From: an uncultured Collinsella sp.
GTDB taxonomy: Bacteria > Actinomycetota > Coriobacteriia > Coriobacteriales > Coriobacteriaceae
Length of the DNA stretch: 64,000 nucleotides
NCBI GenBank assembly: GCA_947507155.1
Contig: CANNOC010000007.1
Coordinates: forward strand, 1-64,000
Reading direction: 5' to 3'
The notes under the pieces: generated by a model
Database searches by the model: none
Told to the model about the DNA's origin: nothing
Seen by the model: the letters and a program-made list of their open reading frames with translations, nothing else
Shown: piece by piece, positions 8,972-42,110 of the stretch
Position numbering within the stretch: position 1 is the stretch's first letter
Layout of the letters: every line of letters begins with the position of its first letter
Translations under genes and position numbers: made by a program

Positions 8972-9008
8972 GTCCCTCACGCCTGTTTTTGCGCTCTAGG
9001 TGATTGGA

Positions 9009-9040
9009 AGGCCTCCGGTTTCGACCGGGGGCCTTTTTCT
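9009..9040 (+). terminator. Attenuator terminator of the Trp-transport operon
   Basis: AGGCCTCCGGT (9009-9019) pairs with ACCGGGGGCCT (9024-9034) around a TTCG loop and is followed by TTTTTCT. It lies between the WWW leader peptide and the transporter genes. A short GTGAG/CTCAC hairpin overlapping the leader stop (about 8968-8980) could act as a pause structure. The competing antiterminator was not resolved by eye. Confidence 0.85.
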
Positions 9041-9117
9041 ATCTCGAGCCCGATCGCGTTCGCATCACGCGCCTCCGCTTTCTTCTCTTGTACTTCCCTT
9101 CCGAAAGGATTTTCACC

Positions 9118-9690
9118 ATGTCTCAGAACACAACCACCGCACAGCCCCGCACCGTCCAGACCGCCGACCGCGGCAAACTCGACGTCCGCGCCCTCGTCTT
9201 GCTCGCCATCCTGCTTGCCGCCGGCTTCATCCTCAACTTCACCGTCGGCAAGGCAATCTCGGGCATCTCGGGCGGTATGATCAGCCCCGAGTTCATCATC
9301 TCGGCATTCTGCCTCACCATCCTGGTCGTTCGTCCCAACATTGGCCAGGCGCTCGTCATTGGTCTCATCTCGGCGGCCGTGATCCAGATCACTACCACCT
9401 CGCCGTTTGTCGATTTTGCCGCCGAGGGCATCGCCGCTATGCTCATGGCCGTCATTGTCAACGCTGCCGCCAAGGACGGCCAGGTTAAGCCCGTCGTCGC
9501 CATCGCCGCAACATTCGTGACCACCTTTGTCTCGGGCGTCATCTTCATGGTCATCAAGATGGCCATGCTCGGCGTTGTGGGCGAGCTCGCCGCAGCCATG
9601 CTGCCCGTCGTCGCCATGACCGCCGTATTTAACGCCATTCTGGTCGGCGCCCTCTACCTGCCCATCCAGAAGGCCCTTAAGCTCAACTAA
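9118..9690 (+). CDS. trpP: TrpP-like tryptophan-specific S component of an ECF transporter
   Basis: 190 aa with five to six hydrophobic segments after a polar N-terminus. GGMISPEF followed by RPNIGQALVIGLISA and a C-terminal YLPIQKAL resemble the layout of the TrpP/YhaG tryptophan transporter family. ECF ATPase and EcfT genes follow. The upstream leader with three Trp codons independently identifies tryptophan as the likely substrate. GAAAGGA precedes ATG. It should bind tryptophan in the membrane and use the downstream energising module. Substrate is inferred from family and attenuator together. Confidence 0.8.
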   Translation: MSQNTTTAQPRTVQTADRGKLDVRALVLLAILLAAGFILNFTVGKAISGISGGMISPEFIISAFCLTILVVRPNIGQALVIGLISAAVIQITTTSPFVDFAAEGIAAMLMAVIVNAAAKDGQVKPVVAIAATFVTTFVSGVIFMVIKMAMLGVVGELAAAMLPVVAMTAVFNAILVGALYLPIQKALKLN

Positions 9691-9696
9691 CCTGCT

Positions 9697-9797
9697 CGGC
9701 TTTACGAGCCACCCCATCTTGGCGTTCATTCGTCGCTCGCGTACCCAAGTACGCTTCGCTCCTCTTTCGCGCCAACCTGGGGCACCTCGTAAAGCCG
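9697..9797 (+). repeat. Post-stop structured element, copy 1 (sense to trpP)
   Basis: Arms CGGCTTTACGAG (9697-9708) and CTCGTAAAGCCG (9786-9797) are perfectly complementary. They enclose a core with CCCCATCTTG, CGTTCA, CGTCGCTCGCGTACC, AAGTACGC, CGCTCCTCTTTC and CAACCTGGGG. The same core occurs after dapH (32212-32353) and, on the minus strand, after ettA (41971-42110). It starts 7 nt after the trpP stop, in sense orientation. A folded 3' untranslated RNA or a small mobile palindrome is possible. Confidence 0.75.
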
Positions 9798-9842
9798 TTT
9801 CCGTGCTTCACCACCAAAGACTGTCCCAAACAACGAGCTTTT

Positions 9843-9882
9843 GGGGACGTTCCTAAACGACTTGTCATGTAAGAACGTCCCC
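9843..9882 (+). other. 10-bp hairpin between trpP and the ECF ATPase gene
   Basis: GGGGACGTTC (9843-9852) pairs perfectly with GAACGTCCCC (9873-9882). No T-run follows and the ATPase start lies 20 nt later. It could be an intra-operon processing or mRNA-stability site that sets subunit ratio, or a REP-like remnant. Confidence 0.6.
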
Positions 9883-9902
9883 AATGACTATGAAAGGTAT
9901 CC

Positions 9903-11654
9903 ATGGAAACGATCATCAACGTCGACGATGTCTCGTTCTCCTATGGCACGCAAACCGAGCAGGCGCTCAGCCACGTTTCGCTCAGCGTGAACAAGGGAGA
10001 TTTCATCGGCATCATCGGGCCCTCGGGCGCCGGTAAGTCCACACTTGCCGCCTGTCTGTCGGGCGCCGTGCCTCACCACTACACCGGCGCCTTTTATGGC
10101 TCCGTGTTAGTTGACGGCCACGACACCTGCGAGGTCTCGCTCACCGACATATCGCAGATCGTCGGTAGCGTGCTGCAAGACATTGACACGCAGATGGTCG
10201 CTTCGGTCGTTGAGGATGAGATGCTCTTTGGTCTCGAGAACTTTGGCGTTCCGCACGACCAGATCGAGCAGCACGTGAGCGAGACGCTTAAGACCGTCGG
10301 CATTAGCGACCTGCGCGACCGCGAGATCGCCACCCTCTCGGGCGGTCAAAAGCAAAAGGTAGCTATCGCCGCCATCCTCGCCATGCGTCCGCGCGTCTTA
10401 GTGCTCGATGAGCCAACCGCAGCACTCGACCCCGCCAGTTCCACCTTGGTCTTCGAGACGCTGCGCGAGGCAAACCGCGCGCTCGGCATCACCATCGTCG
10501 TCGTTGAGCAAAAGGTCGCTCTGCTTTCGGAGTACTGCAACCGTGTGTTGGTGCTCGATCACGGCCAGATCGCGCTGCAAGGTGAGCCGCACGAGGTCTT
10601 CGCACGCACCGACGAGCTTCGCACCATCGGCGTCGATTGTCCGCGCGTCACGCGCATCTTCAACAGTCTCGAGGCCGATGGCTTGGTAAGCGGCACGCCC
10701 TGTCTGGATGTCGACGAGGCAGAACGCCTGATCACGGAAATCGTCGACCCCGACCGTGCGACAAGCGATACCCAGGCGCCCGCAGGCTCCCCGCACGCGC
10801 CGTCGCTGCGCCCGCATGCGAAAGACACCGAGCCGGTGCTCACCTTTGACCATGTCGAGTTTTCTTACCCCCATGGAGGCGCCGCCGTCCACGACCTCAA
10901 CTTGACGCTCTACCCCGGCGAGCTCGTGGGCATTGTCGGCCAAAACGGAGCCGGCAAAACCACGCTCACCAAACTGCTCACGGGTTTGCTCAAGCCCGCA
11001 TCGGGCAGCGTACGCGTTACGGGCTTGGACACGGCATCGGTTCCCACGAGCCGCATCGCACACGAAGTGGCAACGCTTTTCCAGAACCCCGACCGCCAAA
11101 TCTGCAAAGACACCGTGTTCGACGAGGTCGCCTTTGGTCTAGAACTTGCCGGCATCGACCGCGCCGAAGCCCTGCGTCGCGCCCAGCTGGTCATCGACCG
11201 CTTTGGTCTGCCCGCCGACGAGGCACCGTTCTCACTGTCGCGCGGCCAACGCCAGATGGTGGCGCTGGCCTCCGTTGTGGTGATCGAGCCCAAGATCGTG
11301 GTGCTCGACGAACCCACGAGCGGCCTGGACTACCGCGAGTGCATGACCGTGATGGAAACGGTGCGCACCATGGCAGAGCGCGGTTGCGCCGTCATCATGG
11401 TCTGTCACGACATGGAAGTCGTTTCCGACTTTGCCGAGCGCATCGTGGTGATGGCCAACGGTCGCATCCTCGACCGCGGCCGCACGCACGAGCTGTTCTC
11501 GAACATCGAACTCATGCAGCGTGCCTACGTTGAGCCGCCCCAGGTCATCGAACTCTCGCGCCGTCTGGCATCCACCGTCTCGCCCGCCTTTACGCAGGTG
11601 AGTGAGGTCACTGATATCGTTCGCATTACCGAGGAGATGGTCCGCCGTGGTTAA
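9903..11654 (+). CDS. Fused double ATP-binding protein of the ECF transporter (EcfA-EcfA')
   Basis: 583 aa with two complete ABC domains in one chain. Domain 1 has Walker A GPSGAGKST (39-47), LSGGQKQK and LVLDEPTAALD. Domain 2 (from about residue 300) has Walker A GQNGAGKTT (about 345), the signature LSRGQRQM and VVLDEPTSGLD. Most ECF systems use two separate ATPases; here they are fused. The protein hydrolyses ATP on the cytoplasmic face to drive tryptophan uptake with TrpP and EcfT. The downstream ecfT start overlaps its stop. Confidence 0.92.
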   Translation: METIINVDDVSFSYGTQTEQALSHVSLSVNKGDFIGIIGPSGAGKSTLAACLSGAVPHHYTGAFYGSVLVDGHDTCEVSLTDISQIVGSVLQDIDTQMVASVVEDEMLFGLENFGVPHDQIEQHVSETLKTVGISDLRDREIATLSGGQKQKVAIAAILAMRPRVLVLDEPTAALDPASSTLVFETLREANRALGITIVVVEQKVALLSEYCNRVLVLDHGQIALQGEPHEVFARTDELRTIGVDCPRVTRIFNSLEADGLVSGTPCLDVDEAERLITEIVDPDRATSDTQAPAGSPHAPSLRPHAKDTEPVLTFDHVEFSYPHGGAAVHDLNLTLYPGELVGIVGQNGAGKTTLTKLLTGLLKPASGSVRVTGLDTASVPTSRIAHEVATLFQNPDRQICKDTVFDEVAFGLELAGIDRAEALRRAQLVIDRFGLPADEAPFSLSRGQRQMVALASVVVIEPKIVVLDEPTSGLDYRECMTVMETVRTMAERGCAVIMVCHDMEVVSDFAERIVVMANGRILDRGRTHELFSNIELMQRAYVEPPQVIELSRRLASTVSPAFTQVSEVTDIVRITEEMVRRG

Positions 11655-28028: not shown

Positions 28029-28177
28029 AAAGGATCCTTTCATGGGGCATTTCCATTCACACAATATTGTGATGCAAAATTGTGACGCCCTTGTTTCTAG
28101 CATATCCCTGCATTTTTTAAACGTTATATACGAATACTCTTGTTTGGTAAAGTGCAACGTGGTAGGGTCGTTACCAC

Positions 28178-28316
28178 TTGATAGAGGCGCGGGCACGAAG
28201 AACCGCGGGCGAGCCGGCAGGCTTTGACCCCGTGGGGAGGCGAAACCCGCCGAACTGGGCTTTTCGGGCACGAACAACCTGGTGGGCCTACGGGAAACAC
28301 CCGCAGGACTGTCTGC
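28178..28316 (+). promoter_or_regulatory. Lysine riboswitch (L box)
   Basis: Conserved L-box elements occur in order: GATAGAGGCGCG (28180-28191), GAAGA, GGGGAGGCGAAACCCGCCGAA (about 28234-28254, positions only approximate), CTGGGCTTTTCGGGC, and GGACTGTC closing P1 with GATAG. Free lysine should switch off the downstream lysA-dapA-dapB-dapH genes. A GTGGTA/TACCAC hairpin lies directly upstream (28159-28177). Confidence 0.88.
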
Positions 28317-28329
28317 AGCAATGCGGGAG

Positions 28330-28397
28330 CGCTATCCGGACATTGGGTCCACGCTATGCGGATTCGATGCGCAGATGGCGCCGTCTGGATAGCGAGG
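28330..28397 (+). promoter_or_regulatory. Expression platform of the lysine riboswitch
   Basis: CGCTATCCGGAC (28330-28341) pairs with GTCTGGATAGCG (28383-28394). The second arm runs into the ribosome site GAGG (28394-28397). No T-run follows, so control is more likely at translation than at termination. Alternative pairing with the P1 3' strand was not worked out. With the riboswitch this fills the 379-nt gap between the M20 gene and lysA. Confidence 0.55.
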
Positions 28398-28407
28398 TTT
28401 ACGGGAC

Positions 28408-30717
28408 ATGGCATTGACCCCCAACGAGGCATATGCGGCCAAGCAGCCGTTTGTGGACAAGGAGACACTCGAGCATATCGTCGAGCAGTTCCCCACGCCG
28501 TTTCATCTATACGACGAGGCGGGCGTCCGCCGCAACATGCAAGAAGTGCGCGACGCCTTTGCATGGAACCCGGGCTTTAAGGAATACTTTGCCGTCAAGG
28601 CCAACCCCAACCCGGCGCTCATCTCCATTCTCAACGAATACGGCTGCGGCTGCGATTGCTCGAGCTATACCGAGCTCATGATCGCCCGCTCGCTGGGCAT
28701 CACGGGACACGACATCATGTTCTCTTCCAACGACACGCCGGCTGCCGACTTTGAGCTCGCCAACAAGCTGGGTGCCATCGTCAACTTTGACGACATCAGC
28801 CACATCGAGTTCTTTGAGCGTGTTGCGGGGCCCATCCCCAAAACGGTCAGCTGCCGCTTTAATCCAGGCGGCCTGTTCCAGCTCTCCAACGGCATCATGG
28901 ATAACCCCGGCGACTCCAAATACGGCATGACCACCGAGCAGCTCTTTGAGGCTTTCCGCATGCTCAAGGCCAAGGGCGCCGAGAATTTTGGCATCCATGC
29001 CTTCCTTGCCAGCAACACCGTCACCAACGACTACTACCCCAAGCTCGCGCGCATCCTCTTTGAGCTTGCCGTGCGCCTGGAGCGCGAGACCGGTGCACAT
29101 GTCGCCTTCATCAATCTGTCCGGCGGCGTCGGCATCCCCTATCTGCCCGAGCAGCAGGCCAACGACATTCACGCCATCGGCGAGGGGGTGCACGCGGCCT
29201 ACGACGAAATCCTGGTTCCCGCCGGTATGGGCGATGTGGCCATCTGCACCGAGATGGGCCGCTTTATGATGGGGCCCTACGGCTGCCTGGTCACCAAGGC
29301 TATCCACGAAAAGCAGATCTACAAGGACTATATCGGTGTCGACGCAAGCGCCGTCGATCTGATCCGTCCTGCCATGTACGGCGCCTACCACCACATTACG
29401 GTAATGGGTCAGCCGGGTGGCGACGACAAGACCACAGCGCCCGTCACGGACACCTACGACATCACGGGCAACCTATGCGAGAACAACGACAAGTTCGCCA
29501 TCGATCGCGAGCTACCGCAGATCGACATGGGCGATGTGCTCGTGATCCACGATACCGGCGCGCATGGCTACTCCATGGGCTACAACTACAACGGACGGCT
29601 GCGCTCCGCCGAGGTCCTGCTGCGTCCCGATGGCTCAGCCGACCTCATCCGCCGCGCCGAGCGCCCGGGCGATTATTTTGCCACGCTCGACGTGCTGCCG
29701 AGCGGCCGAGAGCTGCTGGCCAAGTCGCGCGCCGAAAGTGCCCGCCGTCGCGCCCAAGACGAGCGCCTGATAGTCGCCGCTCAATGGAACAAACGCATCC
29801 AGATCGCGGACGCGAAGGAGAAGAACATGGACATCCGCAATCTCGAGGGCTCAATCGTCGCCCTTGTTACGCCGTTTAAAAAGGACGGCAGCGTCGACTT
29901 TGACGCACTCGAGCGCCTTATCGATTTCCACCTGCAAAACGGCACCGACGCCATCCTCACCCTGGGCACCACCGGCGAGAGCGCCACGATGACCGACGAC
30001 GAGGACAACTCCGTTGTCGCCGCAGTGGTCAGGCAAGTTGCAGGACGCATCCCCGTCATCGCCGGCTCGGGCTCCAACTCCACGCAGACCATGCTCACCA
30101 AGTCGCTCACCTACCAGGGCCTGGGCGCCGACGGCCTGCTGCTCATTACCCCCTACTACAACAAGTCCAACGAAGAGGGCATCTACCAGCACTTTAAGAC
30201 CGTCGCCGATGCCGTGGACATCCCCTGCATCCTGTACAACATCCCCGGCCGTTGCGGCTGCGGCATCAGCGAGCGCAACGTAGAGCGCCTGGCCGCACAT
30301 CCCAACATCATGGGTATTAAGGAAGCCTCGGGCAACGTCGCCTACGCGGCCAAGATCGCCCACCTGCTGTCCGACGACTTCCGCATGTACTCGGGCGAGG
30401 ACGCCCTCACCGTGCCGCTCATGAGCCTGGGCGCTTCGGGCACCATCAGCGTGTGGGCCGACGTTCAGCCGCAGCTCGTGCACGACATGTGCCGCGCCTA
30501 TCTGGACGGCGACGTGGAGCGCGCCCGCGATATCCAGATTGCCGGCCAGCCGCTCATCAATGCCCTCTTTAGCGAGGTCAACCCCATCCCCGTCAAGGAA
30601 GCACTCGCCCAGATGGGTATGATCGAGGCAAACTACCGCATGCCGCTGCGCCCCATGGCAGACGACACGCGCTCCGCACTTACCGATGCTCTGAAAGGAG
30701 CTGGTCTGCTTGATTAA
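28408..30717 (+). CDS. lysA-dapA: In-frame LysA-DapA polypeptide: diaminopimelate decarboxylase + 4-hydroxy-tetrahydrodipicolinate synthase
   Basis: 769 aa with no stop between two complete enzymes. LysA part (1 to about 440): PLP Lys in FAVKANPNP (K64), LSGGVGIPY and the C-terminal MYGAYHH and GAHGYSMGYNYNGRLRS motifs. After a basic, Ala/Arg-rich linker, DapA begins at M474: LEGSIVALVTPFKKDGSVD, LGTTGES, YNIPGRCG and GIKEASGN with the Schiff-base Lys near 638. DapA commits aspartate semialdehyde to DAP and LysA makes lysine from DAP, so first and last steps share one frame. A good internal ribosome site suggests DapA may also be made separately. Confidence 0.88.
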   Translation: MALTPNEAYAAKQPFVDKETLEHIVEQFPTPFHLYDEAGVRRNMQEVRDAFAWNPGFKEYFAVKANPNPALISILNEYGCGCDCSSYTELMIARSLGITGHDIMFSSNDTPAADFELANKLGAIVNFDDISHIEFFERVAGPIPKTVSCRFNPGGLFQLSNGIMDNPGDSKYGMTTEQLFEAFRMLKAKGAENFGIHAFLASNTVTNDYYPKLARILFELAVRLERETGAHVAFINLSGGVGIPYLPEQQANDIHAIGEGVHAAYDEILVPAGMGDVAICTEMGRFMMGPYGCLVTKAIHEKQIYKDYIGVDASAVDLIRPAMYGAYHHITVMGQPGGDDKTTAPVTDTYDITGNLCENNDKFAIDRELPQIDMGDVLVIHDTGAHGYSMGYNYNGRLRSAEVLLRPDGSADLIRRAERPGDYFATLDVLPSGRELLAKSRAESARRRAQDERLIVAAQWNKRIQIADAKEKNMDIRNLEGSIVALVTPFKKDGSVDFDALERLIDFHLQNGTDAILTLGTTGESATMTDDEDNSVVAAVVRQVAGRIPVIAGSGSNSTQTMLTKSLTYQGLGADGLLLITPYYNKSNEEGIYQHFKTVADAVDIPCILYNIPGRCGCGISERNVERLAAHPNIMGIKEASGNVAYAAKIAHLLSDDFRMYSGEDALTVPLMSLGASGTISVWADVQPQLVHDMCRAYLDGDVERARDIQIAGQPLINALFSEVNPIPVKEALAQMGMIEANYRMPLRPMADDTRSALTDALKGAGLLD
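29815..29829 (+). promoter_or_regulatory. Internal ribosome site and ATG for the DapA part
   Basis: AAGGAG (29815-29820), a 6-nt spacer and ATG (29827-29829), exactly where DapA homologues begin. This permits a free 296-aa DapA besides the read-through LysA-DapA product. It suggests the two genes once had a stop between them. Confidence 0.75.
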
Positions 30718-31489: not shown

Positions 31490-32209
31490 ATGAGCAACGC
31501 AGCCGAGATGGATGCACAAGAGATTATCAACTACATCGCCACCGCGCCCAAAAAGACGCCCGTCAAGCTGTACGTGCGCGAGAAGCCGGGCATGAAGGTC
31601 CAGTGGGGCAATGCACACGTCTACGGCGGTCGTCGTGGCAAGACCGTCTTTGGTGACTGGGATGAGCTTAAGGCAATCCTCGACGCCAACGCCGACTCCA
31701 TCGACTACTACGACGTAGAGAACGACTGCCGCAACTCCGCCGTGCCCATGCTCGACCTCAAGGGTATCAACGCCCGCATCGAGCCGGGCGCGATCATCCG
31801 CGACCGTGTCGAGATTGGCGATCGCGCCGTCATCATGATGGGCGCCATCATCAACATCGGCTCCGTCATTGGCGAAGGCTCCATGATCGACATGGGCGCT
31901 GTGCTGGGCGGCCGCGCCACCGTGGGCAAGAACTGCCACATCGGCGCCGGCACCGTGCTGGCAGGCGTCGTGGAGCCCGCCAGTGCCACGCCCGTCATCA
32001 TCGAGGACGACGTTATGATCGGCGCCAATGCCGTGGTCCTGGAGGGCGTGCGCGTGGGCAAGGGTGCTGTCGTTGCCGCCGGCGCCGTATGCGTCGACGA
32101 CGTCCCCGCCGGCGCCGTCGTGGCCGGTGTCCCCGCCCGCGTCATCAAGATGCGCGACGAGAAGACCGACAGCAAGACCGGCCTGGAAGAGGGCTTACGT
32201 CAACTCTAG
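31490..32209 (+). CDS. dapH: Tetrahydrodipicolinate N-acetyltransferase
   Basis: 239 aa. The N-terminal cap ([14 protein letters not shown]) is followed by left-handed beta-helix hexapeptide repeats ([49 protein letters not shown]). This is the DapH/DapD acetyl form that transfers acetyl from acetyl-CoA, so this organism uses the acetylase DAP branch. AAAGGAGAG precedes ATG. It is the last gene of the lysine-riboswitch operon. A structured repeat element starts two bases after its stop. Confidence 0.93.
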
Positions 32210-32211
32210 GG

Positions 32212-32353
32212 CTGCGCAGTTTTACCAAACCGCGCAACTAGTCGACGCTGCAAACGGCCCAGAGCGGCAATCTGACGTTCAATCGTCGGGCATGACCAAA
32301 AGGTCAATGCCCTCCTCTTTCACGTCACCTTGCTCGCTCTGGGGCGTTTTCGC
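32212..32353 (+). repeat. Post-stop structured element, copy 2 (sense to dapH)
   Basis: A first hairpin (CTGCGCAGTTTTACCAAACCG and its partner, 32212-32234) and TCGACGCTGC are shared with the ettA copy. Then come arms CAAACGGCCCAGAGCG (32251-32266) and CGCTCTGGGGCGTTTTCG. The core shows CAATCTGACGTTCA, CGTCG, an inner hairpin GCATGACC/GGTCAATGC, and CTCCTCTTTCACG. Inner and outer stems differ from copy 1 in sequence but stay complementary. It begins two bases after the dapH stop. Confidence 0.7.
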
Positions 32354-32395
32354 TGACGTATGTTCAACCAGTGGCGTAATTAAGCCCCAAGTAAA

Positions 32396-41903: not shown

Positions 41904-41943
41904 AAACGGCTCAAATCCAAATCAGGATTTGAGCCGTTTTTAT
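41904..41943 (+). terminator. Bidirectional terminator
   Basis: AAACGGCTCAAATCC (41904-41918) pairs with GGATTTGAGCCGTTT (41925-41939), followed by TTATTT. AAA precedes it, so it can also work on the minus strand for ettA. Confidence 0.9.
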
Positions 41944-41970: not shown

Positions 41971-42110
41971 GCGGGCCGCAAGTGCCCCAGGTTGCCGTGA
42001 AAGAGGAGCGACGCGTACTTCGGTACGCGAGCGACGGCTTGAACGGCAAGATGGGGTGCTTGCGGCCCGCGCAGCGTCGAGCAGTTACGCGGTTTGGAAA
42101 ACCGCGTAAC
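41971..42110 (-). repeat. Post-stop structured element, copy 3 (sense to ettA)
   Basis: Read on the minus strand it begins 3 nt after the ettA stop with the 12-bp hairpin GTTACGCGGTTT/AAACCGCGTAAC (42084-42110). CTGCTCGACGCTGC follows, then arms GCGGGCCGCAAG and CTTGCGGCCCGC (41971-41982, 42059-42070). The core has CCCCATCTTG, CGTTCAAG, CGTCGCTCGCGTACC, AAGTACGC, CTCCTCTTTCACGG and CAACCTGGGG. This core matches copy 1 closely, while the arm sequences differ. Confidence 0.75.

Follow-up and report, generated by a model that had tools for sequence, protein, structure and literature searches.

A dispersed family of structured elements directly behind stop codons in Collinsella and its relatives

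The window analysed here, a 64,000-nt stretch of the genome of an uncultured Collinsella species, holds three copies of a structured intergenic element, each lying directly behind a stop codon and in the sense direction of the gene that ends there. Copy 1 follows a gene at 9004-9690 (stop TAA at 9688-9690) and precedes an ABC-ATPase gene that starts at 9903; copy 2 follows dapH; and copy 3, on the minus strand, follows ettA. An earlier note made from the sequence alone had named these upstream genes: the identities of DapH and EttA were confirmed by NCBIfam, whereas for the gene that it called trpP neither NCBIfam nor Pfam gave a match at the thresholds applied. All three copies share one architecture, a hairpin of about 100 nt (H2) whose arms vary while internal positions are conserved. 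In copies 2 and 3, which are composite, a further 5' hairpin (H1) and a linker, CGACGCTGC, precede the shared H2; copy 1 consists of H2 alone, with neither H1 nor linker. Directly 3' of H2 stands TCGCTGAC in copy 2 or CTCGCTG in copy 3. The parts are as follows, with scores from R1, a covariance model that we built from 19 diverse copies.

9697..9795, plus strand: copy 1, H2 alone (R1 100.9 bits, E 4e-26), 6 nt after the TAA stop
32211..32238, plus strand: copy 2, H1 (GCTGCGCAGTTTTACCAAACCGCGCAAC), one nt after the dapH stop TAG (32207-32209)
32239..32251, plus strand: copy 2, linker including CGACGCTGC, conserved ahead of H2 in many of the genus's copies and also in family f2
32250..32348, plus strand: copy 2, H2 (R1 92.6 bits, E 1.2e-23)
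32349-32356, plus strand: copy 2, TCGCTGAC after H2
42084..42110, minus strand: copy 3, H1 (GTTACGCGGTTTTCCAAACCGCGTAAC), 3 nt after the ettA stop TAG (42116-42114)
42071..42083, minus strand: copy 3, conserved linker TGCTCGACGCTGC
41972..42071, minus strand: copy 3, H2 (R1 95.8 bits, E 1.4e-24), then CTCGCTG
41904..41939, strand not given: separate intrinsic-terminator-like hairpin downstream of copy 3, which itself has no T tract

The places and strands that the earlier note gave for the three copies hold, and so does its reading of each as structured: fold z-scores against dinucleotide shuffles are -7.4, -7.1 and -7.3 for copies 1, 2 and 3, and none of 200 shuffles folded as well for any copy. 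Its spacing of 2-7 nt behind the stop becomes 1-6 nt when measured to the start of the structure. Within H2, CTCCTCTTTC is conserved on the sense strand of classes A and B (for example at window positions 9759-9768) and missing from the other H2 classes; it resembles the anti-Shine-Dalgarno tail of 16S rRNA. Two further features of the window were recorded beside the copies. A second, unrelated palindromic repeat, GGGGACGTTC...GAACGTCCCC, occupies 9835-9890 and also occurs near loci L001, L003, L104 and L110, lying downstream of several copies, and a lysine riboswitch (RF00168, 69 bits) lies at 28174-28342 on the plus strand, upstream of a gene starting at 28408. The riboswitch is the only match of the whole window to Rfam 15 at the gathering threshold (cmscan), and permissive scans of ten copies gave chance-level matches, the best of them a eukaryotic miRNA model far below its gathering score. 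The suggestion that the element might be a named motif such as Collinsella-1 is thus not borne out.

The window copies belong to one dispersed structured family, larger than the three members first described. R1 finds 45 matches at E <=1 in the 2.2 Mb genome from which the window comes, 43 of them below 1e-4 and exactly three inside the window. A core pattern derived from the copies has 7 occurrences in this genome, and a relaxed version in 37 of 67 genomes of the same family; the reversed control of the first and the control of the second gave 0. Other near-complete genomes of the genus contain 36 and 39 R1 matches in two cases and none in another. In an order-wide sample of 150 genomes R1 matches 69, spread over 31 of 77 genera, and in a phylum-wide sample of 296 genomes it matches 12, all within the order; none of the sampled genomes outside the order has the element. 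Loose-pattern scans of all genomes and of viral contigs returned mostly scattered chance matches outside Collinsella and were left out of the taxonomy. A literature search found no paper on such a repeat in Coriobacteria.

The structure of the element is maintained by selection. An alignment of 72 distinct copies, drawn from the Collinsella family and from others in the order, has 89.2% of its cells paired, double-sided changes at 30 of 31 pairs and a covariation score of 0.608, against 0.180 for shuffled controls and at most 0.175 for slid ones; compensatory changes thus exceed both controls, as a structured RNA should show. Because copies may convert one another, a single orthologous site offers the stronger test, and at the pheS-pheT site 10 orthologous copies from two families carry double-sided changes at 16 of 23 pairs. 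H1, which recurs before other copies, also has compensatory stems (GTTACGCGGTT/AACCGCGTAAC, GTTACGGCGTT/AACGCCGTAAC, GTTCCGCCG/CGGCGGAC). The earlier observation that the outer arms differ in sequence yet remain self-complementary is therefore upheld well beyond the three copies on which it was made, and the absence of compensatory change that was to count against it is not what we see. Inside the variable stems the unpaired loop sequences are conserved, and they differ between copy classes.

Placement relative to genes is just as regular, and the random position and orientation across the genome that the earlier note named as contrary evidence do not occur. With genes called by a codon-usage gene finder, 101 copies could be scored, of which 93 lie in the sense direction of their upstream gene. 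In 73 of those 93 no more than 10 nt separate the stop codon from the first hairpin, against an expectation of 12.6 for copies placed uniformly within these gaps (for some copies the beginning of H1 is an estimate based on its usual length). Gaps between tandem genes account for 67 of the 101 and convergent gaps for 26, and many tandem-gap copies stand only 28-64 nt before the next gene, so the elements are probably transcribed. Downstream of copies 2 and 3, as the earlier note had described, separate terminator-like hairpins follow, and 93 of 94 copies have no T tract (6 T in 8 nt) after H2; together with the short tandem gaps, this means that the element is not a terminator and is often intercistronic, and we reject the intrinsic terminator as an identity. 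TAA, TAG and TGA precede elements roughly at their background usage, which rules out a target defined by stop-codon sequence. In some f2 copies the stop lies within the H1 loop, and in f7 it is likewise enclosed by the element, the last codons of the gene forming part of the outer arm (f1, f2, f5, f6 and f7 are number labels for families of the order). It is plausible that some f2 and f7 copies supplied the stop by truncating the gene; at ettA this is ruled out, the proteins being identical with and without the element.

Clustering upstream proteins across genomes reveals that the element recurs behind the same genes in different families: behind pheS in f1 and f5, purH in f1, f5 and f6, htpG and proB in f1 and f2, and queA and an ABC transporter gene in f1 and f5. 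Six f5 genomes have just one or two matches each. In three of these a match lies behind pheS; of the other three, two have weak matches (E above 0.002) and the third has an apparent remnant behind pheS. Presence at any one site is nonetheless patchy. An intact copy occupies the pheS site in 10 of 30 genomes, most of the others having a short gap of 12-93 nt, a pattern that would result either from presence in the ancestor followed by many losses or from repeated gains at favoured sites. At dapH, 19 of the 23 closest genomes have an orthologous element with H2, three have lost H2 and one has no element, and these relatives vary in the inner class of H2, in whether an extra H1 module is present and in whether H2, or the element as a whole, has been lost. 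At ettA the element is present in 12 of the genomes examined, that of the window included, and absent or replaced in others. Such presence and absence, together with near-identical copy classes within one genome and tandem arrays of two or three H2 in other species, is repeat-like behaviour. The upstream genes, as listed, are mostly housekeeping (cysS, tyrS, pheS, prfA, ettA, queA, purH, IMP dehydrogenase, pyrE, dapH, proB, htpG and hspR). Of the two remaining identities that the earlier note had offered, a 3'-UTR regulator and a mobile palindrome that targets gene ends, the family bears the marks of both: its copies are numerous, polymorphic and modular, but they also stand behind the same genes in different families.

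The strand on which the element folds best is, in most copies, not that of the mRNA. The complementary strand folds better in 88 of 93 copies, by 10-17 kcal/mol on average (copy 1: -60.8 kcal/mol antisense, -50.2 kcal/mol sense), and the fixed mismatches, tandem G·A/A·G and G·T on the complementary strand, read C·T and A·C in the mRNA. The mRNA is therefore not selected for greatest stability. An earlier count of G·U pairs by strand, 244 against 64, was driven largely by fixed positions; at variable pairs the strands tie at 69 against 68. The arms thus give no indication of the strand that acts, and selection on the mRNA strand is not demonstrated. Orientation also follows replication. The leading strand was assigned from the GC skew of sampled regions. 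It coincides with the sense strand in 17/17, 21/22, 15/16 and 30/36 copies in four genomes, 83 of 91 when pooled (G115, G121, G124 and G006, three of them from f2), as against 59-69% of genes, and the two f2 exceptions fall close to an arc boundary. This excess over genes is not what transcription by itself would predict. A strong fold may be tolerated only away from the lagging-strand template, the element may spread in a replication-coupled manner, or the genes that it flanks may be rich in leading-strand genes; the housekeeping bias of the upstream genes may explain part of the orientation.

We propose, at somewhat less than even confidence, that the family is a lineage-specific cis-acting hairpin, located at mRNA 3' ends and in the gaps between cistrons, that insulates the upstream cistron, is retained by selection and multiplies in the manner of REP and BOX repeats. 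The element would be co-transcribed with its upstream gene, and its first hairpin, which begins at or includes the stop codon, would fold only when no ribosome is terminating there. Once folded, the hairpin could block 3'-to-5' exonucleases and so insulate the upstream cistron, and between tandem genes it might in addition keep ribosomes from reading on or re-initiating in the gap, and Rho from loading there. A protein may recognise the element, or cleave it, at the conserved pyrimidine-rich internal loops. The family would multiply and be lost as REP, BIME or BOX repeats are, with copies behind some housekeeping genes retained by selection. In favour of this reading stand the sense orientation and closeness to stop codons, the use of all three stops, the short tandem gaps, the lack of a T tract, the stops enclosed in f2 and f7 copies, the covariation and the recurrence at the same genes. 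What the comparisons show is the family, its structure and compensatory evolution, its position and orientation, and that recurrence; action in the mRNA, the insulating function and any binding protein are what we infer. We count against this reading the folding of the complementary strand, the G·U tie, the leading-strand bias and the patchy presence exemplified by pheS.

Some of these observations feed the main rival, which we judge possible and less probable than the cis-acting mRNA hairpin: a non-autonomous mobile hairpin that acts as single-stranded DNA on the mRNA-complementary strand and is moved by a putative HUH, Y1 or recombinase-like enzyme, its position and orientation reflecting insertion bias and the purging of harmful copies, including those with a strong fold on the lagging-strand template. 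The better fold of the complementary strand with its G·A and G·T mismatches, the leading-strand orientation, the multi-copy classes, tandem arrays and modular H1/H2, and the sites polymorphic between species all count in its favour. But no fixed target motif or target-site duplication was seen (at ettA, dapH and pheS no clean pre-insertion site with a duplication of the kind expected of a MITE was found), a process of insertion into DNA has no way of reading three different stop codons as such, and insertion bias alone hardly accounts for copies at the same genes in different families. Nor do the RAYT genes of the genus, which are flanked by a different palindrome, carry R1 copies at their ends. 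Of 45 genomes of the genus, 39 have RAYT-like Y1_Tnp genes; at 20 Y1_Tnp loci no credible R1 match was found at the ends, and those that were read carry GGGGACA-type palindromes. These palindromes, related to the GGGGACGTTC...GAACGTCCCC repeat, look like the cognate REPs, and we reject a RAYT/REP origin for the element on the ground that the local RAYT genes carry other palindromes. All six genomes of the genus without any Y1_Tnp (G021, G023, G029, G031, G044 and G048) nevertheless also have few or no elements (0-6). The genome of the window itself has two single-copy RAYT-like Y1_Tnp genes (L213, 7886-8209 on contig C36; L214, 3001-3201 on contig C26).

Two further readings keep the element in RNA. 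We regard as doubtful a cis RNA element of a new kind, tied to translation termination, in which the hairpin abutting or containing the stop would be ancestral to the order, kept at the same operons across families, read by a putative lineage-specific protein, and spread from stop to stop by an RNA- or replication-coupled mechanism that yields the leading-strand orientation. More doubtful still is regulation in trans, by a lineage-specific RNA-binding protein or RNase that would read the internal loops and coordinate a housekeeping regulon of aminoacyl-tRNA synthetases, purine and amino-acid synthesis, translation factors and chaperones. The conserved unpaired loops inside variable stems, the recurrence at the same genes across families and the list of upstream genes (cysS, pheS, tyrS, prfA, ettA, queA, purH, IMP dehydrogenase, pyrE, htpG and hspR among them) are consistent with it, but many genera of the order have no element and the loop sequences change from class to class. 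A DNA-level element of replication or chromosome organisation, for which polarity along the replichores would matter, draws on the nearly perfect leading-strand orientation in three f2 genomes and is very improbable, as neighbouring Collinsella copies, including those in this window, lie in opposite orientations, adjacency to stop codons goes unexplained and many genomes of the order lack it.

Little work has been done on the RNA biology of Collinsella and its relatives, which are abundant in the gut, and here an element absent from Rfam reaches about 45 copies per genome at the stops of core genes across an order. Its copies amount to natural experiments on what a hairpin at the stop codon does to mRNA decay, operon balance and repeat mobility, and both the folding of the opposite strand and the leading-strand orientation can be tested directly.

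Among known systems, integron attC sites fold on the strand complementary to the coding strand and lie directly behind a stop in fixed orientation. The element is like them in these respects and, unlike them, is dispersed rather than held in cassette arrays; we reject an attC identity on the boxes, since RYYYAAC/GTTRRRY span 0 of 94 copies. ERIC, YPAL and Correia repeats are palindromes of about 100-170 bp that are transcribed in mRNA, some of them serving as RNase sites (PMC3049150 describes ERIC and Correia). They belong to different lineages from the element, and we know of no comparable recurrence at the same genes across families for them. BOX, RUP and SPRITE of pneumococcus are modular, structured, transcribed repeats that are polymorphic between strains (PMC3049150). 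The element resembles BOX in its modularity; unlike these repeats of one species group, it is order-wide and locked to stop codons, and no terminal inverted repeats or target duplications were seen in it. Similar in setting are REP and BIME, multi-copy intergenic palindromes often found less than 20 bp behind stop codons, between tandem or convergent genes, with GTAG and CGTC families and GTAG termini that may supply the stop codon (PMC3733652), REPINs being mobilised by RAYTs (PMC3116915). The element shares with them the form of a multi-copy intergenic palindrome close behind stops. Whereas REPs measure 20-40 bp with an unpaired GTAG or CGTC tag at the foot, its H2 is about 100 nt and the whole about 100-160 nt, there is no GTAG, and CGTC stands beside H2 on the complementary strand in linker-bearing copies, not in those with H2 only. 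Compensatory evolution at orthologous sites further sets it apart from REPs. In its size and several conserved internal loops, its fixed orientation to genes, its order-wide range and its recurrence behind the same genes, the element differs from REP and BOX alike.
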